From the NCBI GenBank assembly GCA_900095095.1, contig FMBT01000321.1:355507-419506 (forward strand): a stretch of 64,000 bases of DNA, read 5' to 3'. Shown here piece after piece: positions 13,542 through 59,806 of the stretch (its first letter is position 1; every line of letters begins with the position of its first letter). The notes beneath the pieces are model-generated. The model saw only the letters and a program-made list of their open reading frames with translations, did not search any database and was not told the origin of the DNA. The translations under genes and the position numbers were made by a program. The stretch is from Fragilariopsis cylindrus CCMP1102 (lineage: Eukaryota > Bacillariophyta > Bacillariophyceae > Bacillariales > Bacillariaceae).

Positions 13542-14750
13542 TCATCGTGTGGCTTCAATCAGAAACATAACACCCATAATTCGTAATCCATTTACTACTA
13601 ATAATTGAAATTTATCACGTGGAACTTTGGTCGCTAATAGACCACCCAGATGTCCACCTAGCATTAATGCTGGTAATAAATACAGAGAAGCCTGACAACG
13701 TTCGAAGGTAATGATCCCTTCATAGTATTGAGAAATAATCACTGGTACATTAACTACAAAAAATAATAATTGCATATTCGCTCTAAAAATTTCAGGTTGT
13801 TTTTGCCATCCAGCTTCTTTGGCATAAATTAAAAATGCTGGCCCACCTGTACCAAATGCACCCATTAATGCACCACCCACAAATCCAGCTACTATAGCTG
13901 TTGGATTACGTGTCATATTATGTTTACTATTTTTACTGCTTGTTATTGTCGTCGTCGTTTTCGTCGTCGTTTTCGTTGTTGCATGATGATTAGAATTAAG
14001 ATTTGGTACGGCGAGACTATTATTATTATTATTATTATTATGTGTATTATACCGATGTGTCAACGGTGATAATTGTGATTCTGCACATGGTATATTAGCA
14101 GAAATCGGTGAAGAGGGTTGAGTAGAATCATCTTTTTTCTCTTCAATGTTGTCATCACCGTTTTCAATATCTAATATTGACTCTAATTCTATGTCACTTG
14201 TTTTTCGTTTAATTTGGTTTTTGTAGTTATTTCTATTGTTTATTACACCAGCAGCAGCTGTTGCTTCTTGGCCTATTATATCGCTGCGATCATTATGGCT
14301 ATGGTTACTGCTTTTCATTTTCATTTTGCTGCTCTCATTTCTATTTTGGTCATCGTTGTCATCATCATTATCATTTTTACTTTTTATCATCGTATAAACA
14401 ATTAAAAATATACCTAACACGCAATCAATGGCATTGGACGACCAGGATGTGACAATCCATAATCCAAATAGTATACCAAATGGTGCAGTCATAAGTAATG
14501 GTTGTAATTCCGAGGGTGTACATGATTTATAGATGTGACATACTATAAATAAATTTAATGCGAGATGCATGGGTTGTAAGACACCCACCGCATCTTGTAT
14601 AGAGGTAAATAAGGGAAAAAAGGACATCCAAACTAACGAACAACCAAATCCTAATATACCTTCCACAATGGATCCAATAAATACTGCCATACTGGCAATA
14701 ATTAAATGATCCATTGTTCCACTACCATCATCGCCATCACCATCGCTCAT
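13542..14750 (-). CDS. TauE/SafE family membrane transporter (sulfite exporter-like)
   Basis: A 402-residue single-exon frame from ATG 14,750. Two homologous membrane halves typical of TauE/SafE proteins are visible. The first has VFIGSIVEGILGFGCSLVWM and further helices to about residue 125. The second, after a ~150-residue hydrophilic, Asn/Thr-rich loop, has IVAGFVGGALMGAFGTGGPA and several helices to the end (LVVNGLRIMGVMFLIEAT). The GFG and GTGGP glycine motifs occupy the expected positions. The family moves anions such as sulfite, sulfoacetate or taurine-derived compounds; the substrate here is unknown. The long central loop, containing poly-Asn from an (att)n repeat, is a diatom-style expansion. 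Seven or eight membrane segments are estimated. The stop codon lies 299 bp from the end of the WS/DGAT gene, with which it converges. Confidence 0.85.
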   Translation of the reverse strand: MSDGDGDDGSGTMDHLIIASMAVFIGSIVEGILGFGCSLVWMSFFPLFTSIQDAVGVLQPMHLALNLFIVCHIYKSCTPSELQPLLMTAPFGILFGLWIVTSWSSNAIDCVLGIFLIVYTMIKSKNDNDDDNDDQNRNESSKMKMKSSNHSHNDRSDIIGQEATAAAGVINNRNNYKNQIKRKTSDIELESILDIENGDDNIEEKKDDSTQPSSPISANIPCAESQLSPLTHRYNTHNNNNNNNSLAVPNLNSNHHATTKTTTKTTTTITSSKNSKHNMTRNPTAIVAGFVGGALMGAFGTGGPAFLIYAKEAGWQKQPEIFRANMQLLFFVVNVPVIISQYYEGIITFERCQASLYLLPALMLGGHLGGLLATKVPRDKFQLLVVNGLRIMGVMFLIEATR

Positions 14751-16040
14751 CTTTGTGTTGTGTTGTGCTTACTGTATATTGGTTTTGATTTTGGTCTTGA
14801 CTTTTGCTCTTGCTCTTGCTCTTGTCTATTCTATTTTGATGTCTTCGTTGGATGGATCTCTTCTTCTGTTCTTTGTCGATTCTGCTTGTCGATCTTTTCT
14901 TCCCTCTTCTTTTTCTTTGTCGCTACCGGGAATGTGTACGGTATTACAACTAATGTGCTGTAGTTTTGCCTTTCCCTGTGAGAACGAGCCCTGCCGATGA
15001 CCTTGCTTGCTGTTTTTTTTTGGAAGAATTTATTTTGAGGAACCCGAAGGTAAAAGGAGCCTCGTGAACAATTCATTTCTACTAGTAGTAATACTGTACA
15101 CGCGACAGTACGCGCGACACGCCACCACAACACTAGTTACCGGTAGTGAAACTGAAACTCCGAAACCAGTCGGACGAACGCCAAAAAAAACTTCGTTTCA
15201 CGAATACACAATAAGACTGAAATTACCCTTCTAAAGCAGGCAGGTCGTAAGAAAAATGATATTACGGTATGTATTTGCAACAACAAGCTTCTCTCTTCTT
15301 GTCGTAAATCTTTCTTTTGGTAGTACCGTAGTAGCAGCAGCTAGCAGCTCTAATGACTATTCTATCCAGTAAAGATTGGATTAAGTATAGATAGATAGAT
15401 AATAAACAGTTCCAAGCTAGTTGGATTCAATTAGTTGCACATCAAGTCAAGTCAAATTAAATTCTCTTGACGGCGCAACGCAAATTGGTACACAAAACAA
15501 CAACAACAAATATCGAGAGGACTTCAACTTTCTTCTTTCATTATAGATTGGAATTTGCCTAGGTATGATTCAGCATCAACTACTAGGCTACAACTTTTAT
15601 GCAGGAACTAGAATACGTAGGAACCGTTTAAATCGTACGAGTATCCAGCCGACTATCAACTTCTCCGAAAGAAGACCCGTGTGTTAATCAGTATTTTGTT
15701 CTATCCACACATAAGACAGTAAATTGGATTGCGCAAAAATCAATTCTTCGTGAGAGAGAAGTAAAAAAGTGAAACGCTTGCCGGGGACAATTTTAATTAA
15801 TTCAAACGAAGACTATAAGTTATTATGCTCTCGTTGGAACGTAACTATTCAAATACTACTATAACAATTGACAACTAAATTACTTTTACTATTGTGTATT
15901 TCATTATCCTGTGTGAGTGATTAACGAGAGAAATCTGGAACAACTCACCACTTGAAAATGCATAACTCACGTACGAACATATCGTATCGTATGAATATTT
16001 CTGCAGTACGTACGGTATCGATCCCCTCTGCGACTTGTAT
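14751..16040. other. Intergenic, no gene recognised; possible transposon-end fragment
   Basis: 1.3 kb without a supported gene. At about 15,509-15,528 the sequence aaatatcgagaggacttcaac closely resembles the right terminus of the mariner-like relic at 19,897-19,917, so a decayed related end may lie here. A (gata)n-like stretch lies at about 15,386-15,402. Confidence 0.35.
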
Positions 16041-17081
16041 CTATCTAGCTAGAGTTTCGCAGCAATCCTCCCATTCCTTCAACTCTCGTGGCGAAGGACG
16101 TCGACCAAGAACAAACTCGTACTGTTCGGCTTTCGTCTTTGCAAACTCGTTTTTTTTGTCTTTACAGAACTTCTTGTGAAGCGGCCAGTCTTTACGTTGA
16201 TGATCCTTGCAACAATAGTACACCATCTTGCAACCCGCGCATTTTAAGAGACACTGTGAGGAACGAGTCTTGTCCTGCACAACGTGACAATAATGACAGG
16301 ATTCCACTTTCTTCGTCGTGCCACCCAACTTCGTAAAAGCAGCCGTTTTCTTCCCAAACGCAAGTCCGAGTACTTCTAGATTTGCCGAACGGTTATTGGT
16401 CAATGCTGTTGCACCAGCATTTTTGACACCGACAGGTTTGATGAGAAGAATTTTGTAACCAGCAATTCCATACAAGCGTGTTGGTTCAAGCGTTCTAGTA
16501 CACTTCTTGAAAGTATCTTCAATAGAATCATCCGGCGATACTACAATGCACGCAAGACCTTGAACTTCTACCGTAGAGCAATGGCGCAATGGATGCCCAT
16601 CCAGGTGCCGTGTGTACAAAAAGTTAAACATCCTTTTTACGTGACGTACCATCGAACGATGGATACCTTCCATTAGCAGTTCGTGACCACGAACTTCAGT
16701 AAACCCACATGTGTAAGCGAAGTATTTTCCTTTATCTCCGCATAAAGTTATTTTAATCCCACTCATCCCAGGAAGCTGGCCTCGAATCATTTGTCCGTAA
16801 GATGCGGGATATGGACGTACTTTCAAGTGAGTGTTCAGTTGCGTTGCCATCTTCTTTCGAGCCGCTACCCCATTGTTTTTGATATCATCTAACGTTACGA
16901 AATTTTTAGTGACACCGACTGCCTCAAAAAAAGGCTTATTCTCCACGTAAAATTCGTGCATTTGTTCCAAAGAACACGCTAAAAGAGCATCTTTCAACGC
17001 ATCCTGATGCCGATGAGGATTAAGACGTGCCACGTAAAATTCGTGCATTTGTTCTAAAGAACACTGATGAGGATTTACCAT
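16041..17081 (-). CDS. MYND zinc-finger protein with a possible DUF4262-like region
   Basis: A 346-residue frame from ATG 17,081. A MYND finger lies near the C-terminus (about residues 262-302), with paired cysteines in CHYC, CLLKCAGC and YYCCKDHQ and the final HKKFC; MYND fingers bind zinc and mediate protein-protein contacts. The central part, KYFAYTCGFTEVRGHELLME, resembles the start of DUF4262 proteins (FAYTxGL...HPEL), a tentative assignment. The N-terminus contains an in-frame duplication: CSLEQMHEFYV at residues 7-17 recurs at 36-46, i.e. an 87-bp period. The real start could be upstream exonic sequence, but no clean splice site was found. No targeting peptide is seen. Confidence 0.8.
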   Translation of the reverse strand: MVNPHQCSLEQMHEFYVARLNPHRHQDALKDALLACSLEQMHEFYVENKPFFEAVGVTKNFVTLDDIKNNGVAARKKMATQLNTHLKVRPYPASYGQMIRGQLPGMSGIKITLCGDKGKYFAYTCGFTEVRGHELLMEGIHRSMVRHVKRMFNFLYTRHLDGHPLRHCSTVEVQGLACIVVSPDDSIEDTFKKCTRTLEPTRLYGIAGYKILLIKPVGVKNAGATALTNNRSANLEVLGLAFGKKTAAFTKLGGTTKKVESCHYCHVVQDKTRSSQCLLKCAGCKMVYYCCKDHQRKDWPLHKKFCKDKKNEFAKTKAEQYEFVLGRRPSPRELKEWEDCCETLAR

Positions 17082-17272
17082 TGTATCCTGTATAATTAGT
17101 TGACGATGAGAACCACAACCACAACAAACAATAATTTTATGAGAAAAAGAGAAATAATACTCAAATAATGAAATAAATAATACCGTACAAAACTCTTGAT
17201 ACCGACGTTTTTCCGCGGAAAAAATGAAATTAATAACAGTAATTCCTGCTCTTGGAATCTAAAAGCTCTTGC
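17082..17272. promoter_or_regulatory. Short 5' flank of the MYND gene
   Basis: 191 bp between the MYND start codon and the left end of the mariner-like relic. It must include the gene's proximal promoter unless that extends into the transposon. No specific element was recognised. Confidence 0.3.
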
Positions 17273-19916: not shown

Positions 19917-20079
19917 ACATGAGAGTCATCCAATAACTTCACCATCATTTCTCGCATACTGTACTTCGCTTATTTGACTTCCATTATCATCAGCGACAAA
20001 AATGTATCAGTGCAGCAACAGCAACAGCAATAGCAATATAACAATAGCACACTAGAACAACCGTCAACGCTAAGTCTGT

Positions 20080-23064
20080 ATGATGACGACGTCGATGTCA
20101 TCACCGTTACGAGCTACTGCTACTCCTGCCAAGAATGTCAACAGTCATATTCTGCCTTCTTCGTCATCGTCATCGTCATCTTCGCCACCATCGTCGATAT
20201 TGAGTACGTCACAGGTTCATTCAAAGACGTATACTTTCCCATACAAATTATATGATCTCATGGTGGACAACACGACCTCGACTGGAGATGCATCGTCTCA
20301 AGATGTGGTTTCGTGGTCATCCGATGGGAAAGTTTTCGTTATTAATAACCACAAACGATTTGCTTCTGAGTTATTACCAAAGTACTTCGGTCACAATACC
20401 CTCAGAAGTTTCGACCGACAAATTAAGTACTGGTCATTCGAAACGGTGCATCCCCCGCGGGGGATGAACAAAATTACCAACGAATCTTTTGGAGGAAAGT
20501 CATGGAAACATCCTTTCTTTGAAATGGGTCGACGAGATTTACTCAAGCACATTGTCCGCACAGAACTGAAAAGTAAACCTTCCAAGGCAATTCGAAATCT
20601 TAAAAAAGGAACAATGGACTGCGACAACAAAAATGACGGGCGTAACAGTAGTAGTAGTAGTAGCGTCTCCGCCGTGAATGTGAATGTGAATGTGAATACG
20701 AATGCGCATGCGAATGGATATTGCATCAATAACAATAATGCTATGAATAATGATAACAATTGTTTATGTTATGGCGAAGAAAAAGAATGTAAATATCTTC
20801 ATGCCGTAGAAGAACTTAGAAGAAAAGCAACAGCCGAAGAAGTAGAGGAAAAGGCAGCAGCGAGAACTTTCAATATTCAAATCCCGACAGTATTGGCTTC
20901 ATCGCCTTCGATGATCAATCAAGGAATATTCTCGCAACTGCATTCCTCGTCATCATTGTCAGTCCACACGAAAATAGCTCGAGAACTACAAACAAAGTTA
21001 GCCATCATCAATGAACAACTGGATATTGTCTCAAAAAAAGCTCGGGATGCAACGACGGTGACTCTGCAGCAAAAATACAAGGGACTACGCGCATCGTTTG
21101 ATTTTTCCTTTCTCGACGCTACGAAACAGAAACTGCAGCAGCTGCAGCAGCAGGAGAAGGAGGAGATCACAGTCGCTCATCCATTATCTGTTAATACAGG
21201 TACATCAAAGTCTTCGGCGAAGGTACAATCGTTACCACAAGAGGCGGTTGTGTTAATTAATGATGATATTGTCGTCGGATCTGCTTCCAACTGTGCATCG
21301 CAATCACAACTTCAAACGATGATATCGCAACCCAATATCGTATCACAACTCCATACCAAAACGAATTCATCTCGAAAACAATCTTCGTTTTCGACTGCAG
21401 CATCGAGTCAAAATGAACCAAACGATGATACATACAGTGCGGCTGCTAATCACCTCATCGACCCACCTGTATCATCGGAAAGGAGGTTGGCTGAGACAAG
21501 TTTTAGTCACACCACCCCATCGGTAAGTTCCCAGCAAGCATCCTCTTTATTTTATATCTACTAATTTATTATACCGGTCACCTCATCAGCTTGCATTGAT
21601 CAAAAATTACAAAAACTCTAGCAGCAGCAGCAGCAGCAGCAGCAGCAAAGACTTTCGTCGAAGTTAGCGTTATTGTCGTCAGCAACTAAAAAACACCCAC
21701 CTGTATCATCGGAAAGGCGGTTCGTTGAGACAAGTTTATCTTCGTCTCCTCCGCCTAATCTATCTATTCGGGGGAGATTTAAATTGCATTCGCACGACGT
21801 TGTACTAAACTGGGATAAATTGAATCATAGTGGAAATGAATGGTACCGTCAATTGATTGAAAAGGACCGATCGTCTACCGACGATGAGAAGCCAGCGATC
21901 GCAAAAGCTATTGTTCAAGCTGTTCATCAACGAGTACCGCACGGAAGATTCCTCAAGTTATTGTTACCATCAAATTACTGGACGGTGGTTCCGAATGAGG
22001 AAGCTATTGACAAGACGTTACAAGCGTTACACGAGCCAAGTCCACATCAACAAGTGCCATCAATACGGTGTAACAAAAGAAACAAAAGAAGCGCCTGTGA
22101 TGGAGATGATGGTAACAACCGCGAAGCAATAGATACGAATATCCCTCCTATGAAGAAGAGATGTATTTACGAAGTAACGGTATCTTCAAAGGAAAAACAG
22201 TTACCGAATCCGTGTCCTCAAGAGATGACGGATATCGTTGACCAACAGTGTGGGATCGGTGTCGAGAACAAAATTTCTGACTATACATTTGAAGAACGAT
22301 TGACACATCTTGCTGATTACAAGAAAAAACATGGCGACTGTAATGTTCCTCAAAGATCTAAAGAATACACGTCCCTTGGAAGGTGGGTTAATACTCAGAG
22401 AGATGAATACAAGAAATATAAAGAAAGCAAAAAGAGCTCGATGACAAAAGTTCGAATTCGTGTATTGGAAGAGCTTGATTTTAAATGGAAAGTGAAATTG
22501 TTTATTACTTTTGAGGACCGATTGACACAGCTTGCTGATTACAAGAAAAAATATGGCGACTGCAATGTTCCTAGAGACTTTGAAGAATACACGACCCTTG
22601 GAAAGTGGGTTAGTTCCCAGAGAACAGAATACAAGAGATATAAAGAAAGCAAAAAGAGCTCGATGACGAAAGTCCGAATTCGTGCGTTGGAAAAGCTTGA
22701 TTTTAAATGGAAATTGCAACTTACTTTTGAGGAACGATTGACACAGCTTGCTGATTACAAGCAAAAGAATGGCGACTGTAATGTTCCTTGTACGTCTAAA
22801 GAATACAAGAGCCTTGGACAGTGGGTTAGTTACCAGAGAACTGAATACAAGCGCTGCAAAGAAGGCAAAAAGAGCTTCATGACGAAAGTCCGAATTCGTG
22901 CATTAGAAAAGCTTGGTTTTAAATGGCACAATACTCAGTCACTGGAGGAAATAAGACCCATTCCTGCGGGCCTTTCGTTGCTAAATGACGTCGCAGTAGT
23001 TGCTGTCGACGAAGAACAGCGAATAGAACACGACGGTGATGATCAGCTGTTCGGAGAGAAGAAT

Positions 23065-23099
<35 letters not shown>

Positions 23100-23472
23100 G
23101 AACAACATCAACGACAACGATGACGACGATAGTGATAGTAATGTTCTCGGCGCCAACGAAGTTGTAGCTGTTGCTATCCCCCTTCCTATCCTAGAACTTC
23201 CTCCTGTAGAAACCGTAGTTTATGTCGACGACGAACAGCAAATTGAACACAACGATGATGATCTGCTGCTCGGAAGAAGCAAGACCAGTAGCAACAACAG
23301 CGAGGACGGTGACGGTAGTGATAATAGAGTCGGTAGTTACAGTTGTTACCGTGCAGAAGAAGGCGACCGCATTGATAATAATGAAGATTTTGATGGCGAT
23401 GGTAATGGTGGCTGGCGTGATCTTGGTGATGAATACTACGACACTGATGACGAGGATTGTTTGGTCTTTTAG
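20080..23472 (+). CDS. HSF DNA-binding domain fused to a DUF6824-like domain and three HA repeats
   Basis: Two exons, 20,080-21,522 and 21,622-23,472, are joined in phase 0 by a 99-bp intron (GTAAGT...CTCTAG) and give 1097 residues. Residues about 46-160 form an HSF-type winged helix (YTFPYKLYDLM, VVSWSSDGKVFVI, PKYFGHNTLRSFDRQIKYW, GKSWKHPFF). A possible oligomerising coiled coil lies at about 300-370 (LQTKLAIINEQLDIVSKKA), and poly-Gln starts exon 2. A DUF6824-like domain spans about 531-624 (HDVVLNWDKLNHSGNEWYRQ, HGRFLK, YWTVVPNEEAIDKTLQAL). Three ~70-residue helicase-associated repeats start near 702, 776 and 847, each with YKKKxGDCNVP, LGxWVxxQRxEYK and LxFKW. The tail is acidic. Exon 2 has no ATG before the DUF6824 region and its frame is closed by TAG exactly at the acceptor, which supports splicing into one protein. 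A nuclear, DNA-binding role is inferred. Confidence 0.75.
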
Positions 23473-55295: not shown

Positions 55296-57869
55296 TCAAT
55301 TAGGTGGAGACCCACCCTTCTTGGCATCCGAATATGCCTTGTGATACTTGGCAATGGATTCCTCTGTATGTCCCATAATAGAATTCCTGTGAGTCCTAAA
55401 TAGGCAACCCTGTAGGGGCTTGGTCAAATAGTCGGATACCATTTCCTTAGTTGGATGATATATAACACTCATACTTCCATCCTTGATCTTGCTTGTTACA
55501 TAGAAATACCGAATGTTGATGTGCCTAGTCCTTTTGGTACTAGATTGTTTACCATTTCTTGCCAACAGAATTGTACTTGTATTGTCTTGTTGTATCACAA
55601 TTTCAGACCCAATCTTCTTCAAAATTGAATCGCTGTTAATTGATTTGAGCTGTTCTCCTACAAATAACTGCACCCATTCAACAAAGTTCATTGCATCATC
55701 GACCCCAACTAATTCTGCTTCCGTAGAGCTCTTGGTGTTGATCTTTTGCTTGATTGACATTGCCAATAGGGCGCCTTGTCCCAGTGTTAATACAGCACCG
55801 GTATGGCTTCTCATATCCTTGTGTATTGCAAACGATGCATCCACTGACCATAATAGTTTTCCAGTACCATCCCATCCCAACACGAGTGGAATGGATATGG
55901 TTAGTCGTAAATATTTGATCACCCTGGTTAATTTCCGGTAATCTGACTGTGTTGGAGCTTTCACTCGAGTACATAGATATGCTACAGCTACCTGTAGATC
56001 TGGTCTCGCTCTCTTTGAAGCAAACAGTAGCCTTGCTGTTGTTCGATGGAAGAAATCTGCTTCTTTTTCATTAAGCAGTGGTGAATCTTCATCCGCATCA
56101 AACAAGTTGCTACTTGCTGGTGTAGGTGATGTTCCCCTCATATCATTAGGCATTTCCTCCAGGATATCCTCCAAGTAGTCGTACATGGTGAAGATTACCT
56201 TCCCCTTTTCACTGTAATCAATAGTGATACCAAGATAGTCATGGACCAATCCGGTGCTAGCAGCAAGTGGCTTTCTTGTTGTACCAAATTGCTTGTTGAG
56301 GTCGGTTAGTACCGCGTCCACAACAGATTGCTTGACGTGTGATATCTTCAAGTCATCCACATGGAATTGGATTGTAACTTGGTTGCCATCAACCATCTTA
56401 TTGAATGTGCATCCATCATAGCAATTTGGTTCATATCCCCATTCCACTAATTGCTTACTAAGCTTGTCGTAGAATAATTTAGCACCAAGTAGTGTACCAT
56501 ACACTGCTTTAGTCAGCTTGGCATAGAGATGTTTCTTTCCATTCTTGCCAGGTACGAGATTCTTCTTGTATTCGGGGTTTATTTTGCATATCATACCGAC
56601 CATTACTCCATCGAATTTGAGCCAGCAGTCATGGTCTGCTGGCCAGTCAGCTTGTAGGAATGCTCCCGGGATGTCGCATGTGGCAACATATCTGCCTTCT
56701 ATCGCATCCATTAAACATGATGTCATCAATGCATATATCGACACTGTCGGGGAGCTAGACTCTTCCTTAGTGATGTATTCTCTTTGTGGCCGGCCATCGG
56801 CACAGCCTCTGGCCTTGATCTTTCCACAGCACTTTCTTTTTAAGAACATGAGGTAGTTGAGAGCCTCGTAACGTATGTGTTGATTGACTTCAGATGGATT
56901 AAGCATTTTTACTGCATTCATTCCTAAAAGATTATCATCAAGCTCTTTCACTGTTGCTTCATACCCAAGATCCTTGAATTCCTTCAGGCCTCTGTTAAAA
57001 CCATACTGTGGAGTAGACTTGGATGCTTCGATGTTGTTGTAAGAGGCAATGGTGTTGAGAACATAAGCATGTGATGATTGGGCGAACGCCCAATATGAAC
57101 CTAGGTCCGACACAAGCTCGGACGGAACGGATGGTTCCTCTACTGCAGCATCAATGACTTTGTCGTTGTTAGGTACTACAGTATTGTCTTGTATTACGTC
57201 ATCATCGAGATCTTCTTCTATCAAGTGTGTACCGTCATTGATGATGGGATACTTCTTCTTCTTATCGCTGCCACACTCCTGCTTTGCAGCTGGTGTAGTA
57301 GTAGTAAGAGCCACTGTTGGATTGTTGGCTGATCGGGTCCTATTGTCAAAGATGACAGGTTCTACACCCTGATTGTGTTGTTGTATTGGGTTCTGAAAGA
57401 AGTCTATCTGCGAGTCCGGGTCATCCGAACCAAACCCTGTTGAGTCAGGGTCTGCATCATTATCTGGATTATCTTTAAGTTCCAGTTTCCTTTCTTTGTC
57501 AAGTTCATCTTGATATTCTTCATCCATTTTAAAGTCAGCATCAGACGCATTGCTGTCATCATCATTATTATCATTGGCAGCGAAGTCATCAAGTGTGATC
57601 TTGCCATTCATGTCAGAGAATTCTAAGCCTTCTGGCTGTCCTTCCTCATTGCCAATGTGATTGACAGCTGTAATGGTGGCCTCACTTGTAGGTATTATTA
57701 CAACCCTGTTGACCGATACGACTTGTTTGGTGCTTAGTTTGAACACGCTGTGTCCACTGCCATTGTCAGCCCTACCGATGTACAAAGCATCGATTGACCT
57801 CTCTTGATCAGTACTGTTTGTACCACCCGTGAGACCTTGGACGTATTGCCTATTTTGATAGTAGGACAT
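55296..57869 (-). CDS. Copia reverse transcriptase and RNase H
   Basis: An 857-codon frame; its ATG at 57,869 lies in an overlap with the preceding frame, so the true protein should start in the integrase frame. Residues 1-260 are an acidic linker after the integrase. The RVT_2 domain starts near residue 300, with ARGCADGRPQREYI, DIPGAFLQADW, LTKAVYGTLLGAKLFYDKL and the catalytic FHVDDLKISH. RNase H shows LLWSVDASFAIHKDMRSHTG and SSTEAELVGVD. The end has RHINIRYFYVTSKI and VSDYLTKPLQG, the classic copia terminus. All catalytic residues appear intact. The frame is offset from integrase by one base near 57,846-57,858. Confidence 0.93.
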   Translation of the reverse strand: MSYYQNRQYVQGLTGGTNSTDQERSIDALYIGRADNGSGHSVFKLSTKQVVSVNRVVIIPTSEATITAVNHIGNEEGQPEGLEFSDMNGKITLDDFAANDNNDDDSNASDADFKMDEEYQDELDKERKLELKDNPDNDADPDSTGFGSDDPDSQIDFFQNPIQQHNQGVEPVIFDNRTRSANNPTVALTTTTPAAKQECGSDKKKKYPIINDGTHLIEEDLDDDVIQDNTVVPNNDKVIDAAVEEPSVPSELVSDLGSYWAFAQSSHAYVLNTIASYNNIEASKSTPQYGFNRGLKEFKDLGYEATVKELDDNLLGMNAVKMLNPSEVNQHIRYEALNYLMFLKRKCCGKIKARGCADGRPQREYITKEESSSPTVSIYALMTSCLMDAIEGRYVATCDIPGAFLQADWPADHDCWLKFDGVMVGMICKINPEYKKNLVPGKNGKKHLYAKLTKAVYGTLLGAKLFYDKLSKQLVEWGYEPNCYDGCTFNKMVDGNQVTIQFHVDDLKISHVKQSVVDAVLTDLNKQFGTTRKPLAASTGLVHDYLGITIDYSEKGKVIFTMYDYLEDILEEMPNDMRGTSPTPASSNLFDADEDSPLLNEKEADFFHRTTARLLFASKRARPDLQVAVAYLCTRVKAPTQSDYRKLTRVIKYLRLTISIPLVLGWDGTGKLLWSVDASFAIHKDMRSHTGAVLTLGQGALLAMSIKQKINTKSSTEAELVGVDDAMNFVEWVQLFVGEQLKSINSDSILKKIGSEIVIQQDNTSTILLARNGKQSSTKRTRHINIRYFYVTSKIKDGSMSVIYHPTKEMVSDYLTKPLQGCLFRTHRNSIMGHTEESIAKYHKAYSDAKKGGSPPN

Positions 57870-59806
57870 CTGAATTTCTTACCACTAACGATTTCTCTTG
57901 GTGATAGGATGGCATGTATTCCATTGCTCTTAGGTAGAGAGTTAATCAATTGGGCAACTTGGTGTACCATTTCAATGGTGAACCTCATTGGAAGTTTCTT
58001 GTACGGCATCATTAGCCTAACGGCTCGGATCCTCTCCTTGAGGAATCTTATTTGCCTTTCAATAGTCTCCACATGCCTGTCAGCATCACATGTTGATAAT
58101 GTTATATTGTATGGATCTCCTTCAAGCTCGTGCTTGATGGATTTGAATGCTCCGTCAGCTTCAATCGTTACGACCTTAAATACACTCCTACTTTTGTAGG
58201 ACTGTACTATTTTTAGAATGCACGCCAGTATGGCTTCACGATTATTCTTTCTTACACAGTACGTTTGTAGCAGTCCAATGTGCTTGGAGTGAGCTATTAG
58301 GAACTTGACTCCATTCACATGCATAAGGTCGATTGATATGTGGACATCAGTGTATTCTTTCAGTATGAATGATGGGAGTTCTGAAGTATCGTTCTCCGGC
58401 ATCTTGCTTGGCCGTTTGACAGTCTTTCCTTTCAGGGATGGGACGTCTGGACCATAGATCTTCTTTGCAATACGAATGTCCCTTCTGGTGAACCTGTTGT
58501 AGCCTATGATGTTGTGCTCCACTGCATTGGCCAGGTCAATGTCGCTAGGACATGCCAGTACTTGTTGTAGTTCTCTAACCTTGGCAGCTCTTCTGCAGTC
58601 AATTGCTGAGAACTGTGCGCTCTCGCCTTTGACAGTTTGATGTGCCATTACAACATGATCATTGCTATCCGTACCGATGTCAATACAGTACATGCCATTG
58701 GATGTCTTAGCAAACCGTATGTACGAGCCATCATCGTTGAATACATATATAGCATTGTCAATCGCACTGTCCATCACTACCCTTTTAGTTTCAGTAAGCA
58801 TGGCCAGTGATAGAAGGTTAGCTACTCCATTTGGATAGTAGTAATACCCATCACGAGGAAGAGGCAGTGTGTTGAGGTCATCACAAAGACGTCCTATGTC
58901 ATTAACTTGGAACTTCGAATCGGTGGTTCGAACAGCGATGGATTTGCTGTCATCAGAGAGTATGTCAGCTAGCAGGAAGGCATCCTTAAATATGTGAATA
59001 CTAGATCCACTATCAAGAGCAATGGTGGTCCGTGGGCCAACATTCTTACCCCCACTCCTTGCTTCCGGTGGTTGAACTGTCCCGGACATTTCAAGTGTCG
59101 GAGACAAATTAGAAACAAAGATAGGATCAGTAGTAACAGATACAACTTGGTGGTTGAGTACATAAGCACTATTCCAAATCATACCACCAGTCCAGTAAGG
59201 AGAGATGGCGTCATACCATGTGACGTCGAGATAAGATGGATCATCTATAGGATAGAATGATTGAGGTATAGTCGGAGCGGGCAGAGCATTACGGGTTTTA
59301 TATCGTATTGGTCTCCTTTGGTACCAGGTCTGGGTCCGAGGATTGGATCGGACCTGGGTTTGAGTGGGCCAGTAATCGGCCCATGGTTGCGTTATTATAG
59401 AACGCTTGGTTGCAAGTCGCTTTCTAGCATGGTACATACCAGAGTGCCTCCCTGAGGAACTCTTGTTGTTGCTGGAATTATGTCTTCTACATATGCCTGA
59501 AGGGCGTATGGCCATCGATGGATTAGTGTGCATTCGAACACTAGACATCAAACGTTCAAATCGTTGAATGCAATTGAAAATTGGATCAATATAGTTGAAA
59601 TGACGGAAAACACAAGACTCAATTTGAACTATGGCAGTACCGACTGTCAAGATAGAGTTAGCGATTGCTTGGAGTAGCTTGTAGGCAATTCCAAACATTG
59701 GAATGAATATGTTGTTGAAACACATTGCTGAAACGACAGTAGGTAGGCATCCTTGTTGTATATAAGCCAAGTTAGGCAAATCAATCCATAGATGGGTTTG
59801 ATCCAT
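57734..59806 (-). CDS. Copia protease and integrase
   Basis: A 690-codon frame from ATG 59,806, 41 bp beyond the gag stop and in another frame. The first ~90 residues are unusual and hydrophobic (AMCFNNIFIPMFGIAYKLLQ, AIANSILTVGTAIVQI), without a known copia counterpart. The aspartic protease motif is ALDSGSSIHIFKD (about residue 265). A GAG-pre-integrase region follows (NLLSLAMLTETKRVV). The integrase core has its acidic triad in HISIDLMHV, TIEADGAFKS and ETIERQIRFLKERIRA. At about 57,850 the natural sense leaves this frame: adding one base would continue from CPTIKIG into QYVQGLTGGTNSTD of the RT frame. The last ~40 codons of this frame are therefore not native sequence. Confidence 0.9.
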   Translation of the reverse strand: MDQTHLWIDLPNLAYIQQGCLPTVVSAMCFNNIFIPMFGIAYKLLQAIANSILTVGTAIVQIESCVFRHFNYIDPIFNCIQRFERLMSSVRMHTNPSMAIRPSGICRRHNSSNNKSSSGRHSGMYHARKRLATKRSIITQPWADYWPTQTQVRSNPRTQTWYQRRPIRYKTRNALPAPTIPQSFYPIDDPSYLDVTWYDAISPYWTGGMIWNSAYVLNHQVVSVTTDPIFVSNLSPTLEMSGTVQPPEARSGGKNVGPRTTIALDSGSSIHIFKDAFLLADILSDDSKSIAVRTTDSKFQVNDIGRLCDDLNTLPLPRDGYYYYPNGVANLLSLAMLTETKRVVMDSAIDNAIYVFNDDGSYIRFAKTSNGMYCIDIGTDSNDHVVMAHQTVKGESAQFSAIDCRRAAKVRELQQVLACPSDIDLANAVEHNIIGYNRFTRRDIRIAKKIYGPDVPSLKGKTVKRPSKMPENDTSELPSFILKEYTDVHISIDLMHVNGVKFLIAHSKHIGLLQTYCVRKNNREAILACILKIVQSYKSRSVFKVVTIEADGAFKSIKHELEGDPYNITLSTCDADRHVETIERQIRFLKERIRAVRLMMPYKKLPMRFTIEMVHQVAQLINSLPKSNGIHAILSPREIVSGKKFRCPTIKIGNTSKVSRVVQTVLIKRGQSMLCTSVGLTMAVDTACSN

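Follow-up and report, generated by a model that had tools for sequence, protein, structure and literature searches.

The question raised by this locus is whether two adjacent open frames in a diatom genome encode one spliced protein, joining an HSF-type DNA-binding domain to a DUF6824 domain and three HA repeats, and what such a protein might do. The locus lies within a window of 64,000 nucleotides, bases 355507-419506 of contig C303, and the genome comprises 67.9 Mb in 818 contigs. The explanation we favour, and consider probable, is a single nuclear gene. Its 1,097-residue product would be a composite transcription factor, a fusion of HSF with DUF6824-HA that we propose acts as an activator.

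Gene layout and domains

One intron-like gap separates the two open frames, whose joint product has 1,097 residues. The first frame starts at ATG 20080, with a further in-frame ATG at 20083 and an in-frame TAA upstream at 20071. The features of the gene, in window coordinates, are the following.

20080..21522, plus strand: exon 1, an open frame of 481 codons with the HSF DNA-binding domain and then a low-complexity linker
20236..20559, plus strand: HSF-type DNA-binding domain (PF00447), amino acids 52-159 counted from ATG 20083
20647..20856, plus strand: linker segment shared, at 90% DNA identity, with an unrelated-looking open reading frame, C620:31315-31524
20956..21039, plus strand: possible short coiled coil LSVHTKIARELQTKLAIINEQLDIVSKK from a crude heptad count, a candidate oligomerisation stretch
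21461..21503, plus strand: first copy of a 43-nt direct repeat (93% identity between the two copies)
21523..21621, plus strand: putative intron of 99 nt, phase 0, GTAAGT...CTCTAG, with a TACTAAT motif at 21559-21565
21622..23472, plus strand: exon 2, 616 codons and a TAG stop, with DUF6824, three HA repeats and an acidic tail
21695..21737, plus strand: second copy of the 43-nt direct repeat, within the reading frame of exon 2
21820..22035, plus strand: DUF6824 (PF20710), profile positions 11-84
22276..22497, plus strand: HA repeat 1 (PF03457)
22498..22719, plus strand: HA repeat 2 (PF03457)
22720..22935, plus strand: HA repeat 3 (PF03457)
23407..23469, plus strand: acidic C-terminal tail GGWRDLGDEYYDTDDEDCLVF, a candidate activation domain with LVF-ending relatives among paralogues

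The original prediction had based the join on a GTAAGT donor, a CTCTAG acceptor, continuity in phase 0 and the lack of any ATG between the acceptor and DUF6824, and each of these points is correct. The GTAAGT at 21523 is the sole GTRAGT of the gene. The first in-frame ATG of exon 2 is at 22150, beyond DUF6824, and the intron sequence is also without one. With the intron retained, the first frame gains 13 codons and then stops at TAA 21562-21564.

The domains had been named from the letters alone, and Pfam profiles placed all of them above their cut-offs. PF00447 (HSF_DNA-bind) matched exon 1 with 74.4 bits (E 1.2e-20, cut-off 22). In exon 2, PF20710 (DUF6824) scored 48.8 bits (E 1e-12, cut-off 27), with the first 10 profile positions unmatched, and PF03457 (HA) matched three stretches with 188.3 bits (E 2.5e-56, above its curated cut-off). 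The remaining Pfam families listed for either exon were all under their cut-offs and, HA repeats aside, neither exon matched a helicase family in Pfam at E values up to 1. The aligned HA segments are 222, 222 and 216 nt long; identity to repeat 1 is 73% for repeat 2 and 71% for repeat 3.

The suggestion that the protein carries several DNA-contacting modules stands, by sequence, for the HSF domain, which matched the solved HSF2, HSF1 and HSF4 domains in a sequence search of solved structures. For DUF6824 and the HA repeats such contacts are putative: exon 2 found no sequence match among the solved structures, and the model of an HA repeat gave no convincing match in structural comparison. The predicted fold of that repeat has three helices (mean pLDDT 86.3 for the best model, 71.5-74.6 for the other four). 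The structure prediction of DUF6824 was poor.

The recognition helix motif of HSF proteins is SF-x-RQLN-x-YGF, and the human HSF2 match displays RQLNMYGF. The corresponding region here, RSFDRQIKYWSF, keeps SF and RQ and has the N and G replaced. It reads RQIKYWSF in the window and RQIQYWSF in a second copy of the gene on contig C517, described below. As this region departs from RQLN-x-YGF, the domain may bind DNA weakly or differently. The HSF domain of the fused protein could thus have lost heat shock element binding, leaving a scaffold or a repressor, for example one that titrates partners, rather than a DNA-binding activator. The departure from HSF2 and the variation between copies fit such a loss, but the HSF domain still scores 74.4 bits, and the SF-x-RQ core is intact in relatives of the HSF side, the paralogues on C75, C297 and C610 (54-59% protein identity). 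We regard a scaffold or repressor as unlikely, and continue to prefer an activator. An HR-A/B coiled coil is represented by a short candidate stretch only, from the crude heptad count.

Other frames in the window, all on the minus strand, include one that carries a MYND zinc finger towards its C-terminus (16044-17258), one for a TauE/SafE-type membrane protein (13545-14768) and a retroelement-like frame with an RVT_2 reverse transcriptase by Pfam (55299-57878). Long frames beside the last, as far as 62201, may be part of that retroelement. A second DUF6824 half-domain, weak at 26.8 bits and thus just below the cut-off of 27, lies at 933-1598 on the minus strand and probably represents an exon from a different DUF6824 gene.

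A second copy and the putative join between the exons

The copy at C517:17451-20573 has the same architecture: both frames are open, the donor and acceptor are unchanged and the intron is equally long. Because the flanks align on both sides, including the downstream neighbouring frame, it was taken as the other haplotype. The exon 1 proteins of the two copies are 93% identical, and the introns differ by five substitutions and no indels. Exon 2 on C517 is without a methionine before 'PPMKK', the same site as in the window copy. By Pfam it has two HA repeats, as against three in the window. Upstream of the gene, C517 also carries about 0.8 kb (about 285-1115 within C517:15951-21554) that is absent from the window, possibly an insertion or a promoter difference.

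The pattern of indels between the copies tests the join. All nine in the exons are multiples of three (3/3 in exon 1 and 6/6 in exon 2), compared with 2 of 17 flanking indels (exons versus flanks, p = 1.8e-5); the flank count covers three aligned stretches and excludes the large upstream insertion. Selection on the protein is weak, with dN/dS between copies of 0.54 for exon 1 and 0.70 for exon 2. Each exon has a synonymous excess (one-sided Fisher p = 0.034 for exon 1 and 0.035 for exon 2, uncorrected across seven comparisons). Codons 1-140 of exon 2, which precede any ATG, gave a pN/pS of 0.38 (one-sided Fisher p = 0.017, likewise uncorrected across the seven comparisons), and in the HSF domain the excess was not significant (one-sided Fisher p = 0.31).

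The HA region, 22284-22935, is the most divergent of the parts compared, with a dS of 0.23 against 0.05-0.16. The combination of this divergence with a copy number of three versus two suggests unequal exchange or conversion among the HA repeats.

At the level of sequence, the observation of two frames, a phase-0 gap and three domain types is confirmed, and both exons are likely to belong to one gene with a putative splice between them. The domain matches, the second copy and the in-frame indels support the earlier idea of a lineage-specific, multi-module regulator.

The origin of the probable fusion and its relatives

Apart from exon 2 itself and the C517 copy, the best match of exon 2 is on C72, where a DUF6824-HA gene stands alone, starts from an ATG of its own and shows no HSF match. 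DNA homology to C72 starts at 21739, 2 nt after the second copy of the 43-nt repeat, and together these two features place the fusion joint, as it appears, inside exon 2. With the joint at about 21738, just within exon 2, the intron lies on the HSF side of it. The possibility that the intron stems from 5' sequence of a DUF6824-HA gene was considered and is unsupported, since the homology to C72, the one such gene compared, begins at 21739. The linker of exon 1 has relatives of its own: 210 nt of it lie within a frame on C620 (C620:29815-33024, 1501-1710), and weaker copies are seen at the protein level at C411:547476-547673 and C620:35551-35742. Judged by these matches, the gene is a mosaic.

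These findings bear on whether the locus holds two genes instead of one, an HSF gene of about 494 codons ending at TAA 21562 and then a DUF6824-HA gene that starts at a codon other than ATG or in a further exon upstream. In both copies the exon 1 frame does continue to a natural stop codon, its SSQQASSLFYxY terminus being conserved, and the paralogue on C72 shows that a DUF6824-HA gene can have its own ATG. However, neither copy has an ATG ahead of DUF6824 in exon 2 or within the intron, the DUF6824 part is preceded by a copy of 43 nt of the exon 1 linker, and homology to C72 is absent upstream of 21739. We consider two genes improbable. That the HSF gene merely stands beside a decaying, start-less DUF6824-HA fragment is more improbable still, for while the overall weak selection and the differing number of HA repeats would suit a pseudogene, all six exon 2 indels preserve the frame, neither copy has an internal stop and codons 1-140 of exon 2 show a synonymous excess.

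The single fused gene that we prefer has many partial relatives. A profile search of the contigs gave 128 HSF matches in the genome. For HA and DUF6824 the comparison covered 150 of 583 and 150 of 319 candidates, respectively, together with 33 chosen from 90 further matches related to exon 2. Among the matches listed, HSF and DUF6824 occur within one open frame in at least six other places, with HSF first on C343, C513, C155 and C648 and DUF6824 first on C300 and C337. Both domains were confirmed by Pfam on C343 and C513. The six places look like about three loci with two copies each. On C521 an HSF and a DUF6824 match lie on the same strand, 1.3 kb apart and not in one frame. Close to the fused frames on C513 and C343 there is, on both contigs, a second HSF match on the same strand. 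Proteins with DUF6824 and HA and no HSF domain are found by Pfam on C72 and C388.

The pairing of HSF with HA is rarer. Among the matches listed, the two lie within 4 kb on one strand only at the window locus and on C517, besides C26, where an HA frame lies 3.5 kb downstream of a partial HSF match, both on one strand. This pair looks separate by its layout, because some 2.3 kb pass between the HSF match and the opening of the HA frame, which has methionines of its own. When 30 HSF loci were searched, the HA profile matched none and missed even the window's own locus, as the 1.5-kb flank stops before the HA repeats; this result therefore carries no weight. The DUF6824 profile matched four of the 30: the window locus, C517, C343 and C513.

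The original prediction had regarded the fusion as new. This does not hold for HSF with DUF6824, given the six other places listed, and appears to hold for HSF with HA, which among the matches listed is confined to the window and C517, with C26 doubtful. A literature search that covered few subscription papers, and only the matches listed, found no report of an HSF-DUF6824-HA fusion; this silence is a weak sign of novelty.

The tail offers a further link between these proteins. Acidic tails ending in LVF are present in all eight proteins compared (window, C517, C72, C340, C565, C388, C343 and C513), which were selected either for their relationship to exon 2 or because they combine HSF with DUF6824. 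A related frame on C679 ends SDGDCWVI, without LVF. Across the genome the strict pattern DD-x-(L/F)-V-F-stop had 12 matches, against one for a reversed-pattern control, and 9 of the 12 have a listed HSF, DUF6824 or HA match no more than 3 kb upstream. As C157 and C388, C325 and C340, and C565 and C648 are mutual copies, the nine amount to about six independent cases. A looser pattern gave 20 matches genome-wide, not clearly more than the 16 of its reversed control, and the evidence is thus limited to the strict DD form. The mix of acidic, aromatic and leucine residues in the tail presumably makes it similar to acidic activation domains.

A proposed composite regulator and known systems

It seems most likely that the gene encodes a lineage-specific transcription activator made of an HSF domain, auxiliary DUF6824 and HA modules and an acidic tail; the role of the auxiliary modules and the activation itself are what we infer. 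The 99-nt gap would be spliced out. The HSF winged helix would then select the DNA site, while the three-helix HA repeats and DUF6824 might add contacts to DNA or chromatin, and with them specificity, and the acidic LVF-ending tail would recruit the transcription machinery. The gene probably arose when an HSF gene, with relatives on C75, C297 and C610, fused to a DUF6824-HA gene related to that on C72. The occurrence of HSF and DUF6824 in single frames elsewhere in the genome indicates that joining of this kind is tolerated. The number of HA repeats, three and two in the two copies, is still changing. If the intron were retained, the product would be a shorter protein with HSF alone, which makes the intron a candidate switch.

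A broader proposal is that the genome builds combinatorial transcription factors by shuffling the greatly expanded HSF, DUF6824 and HA domain families onto a shared acidic LVF activation tail. In this view the locus is the one triple combination, and its 99-nt intron, which contains stops, decides whether the HSF-only or the full-length protein is made. We hold the proposal in full to be unlikely. The architecture itself is a variant within a set of shuffled regulators and does not form a new category. If the composite activator that we favour is correct, two little-studied domains, DUF6824 and HA, gain a testable role in transcription, and the copies with two and three HA repeats provide a natural test of the effect of repeat number.

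The HSF family is strongly expanded in diatoms (PMC4827209, PMC3145265). Like diatom HSFs (PF00447), the protein has an HSF domain well over the family cut-off, in a genome with 128 HSF matches. It differs from them in its divergent recognition region, in the tentative nature of any HR-A/B coiled coil, and in having DUF6824 and HA attached. The HSF-DUF6824 proteins on C343, C513, C300, C337, C155 and C648 also combine both domains, but in one frame without an intron. Those on C343 and C513 end in DLVF like the window tail, but both were scanned without an HA match, and they have a more typical RQLN region; on C300 and C337 the domain order is reversed relative to the window gene. The proteins on C72 and C388 have DUF6824, then HA and an acidic LVF tail, as in exon 2, with no HSF domain found, and that on C72 also has a KKRC motif in common with exon 2.

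More distant comparisons can also be made. HA repeats are also found in helicases (PF03457, 'Helicase associated domain'), whereas no helicase domain was found in the window protein. Haptophyte HSF-PAS proteins (PMC4827209) likewise fuse an HSF domain to another domain in an alga, although the partner is PAS and the lineage is different. In the diatom genome, the HSF, DUF6824 and HA proteins exchange parts and have similar C-terminal tails, which suggests that domain shuffling built lineage-specific regulators.
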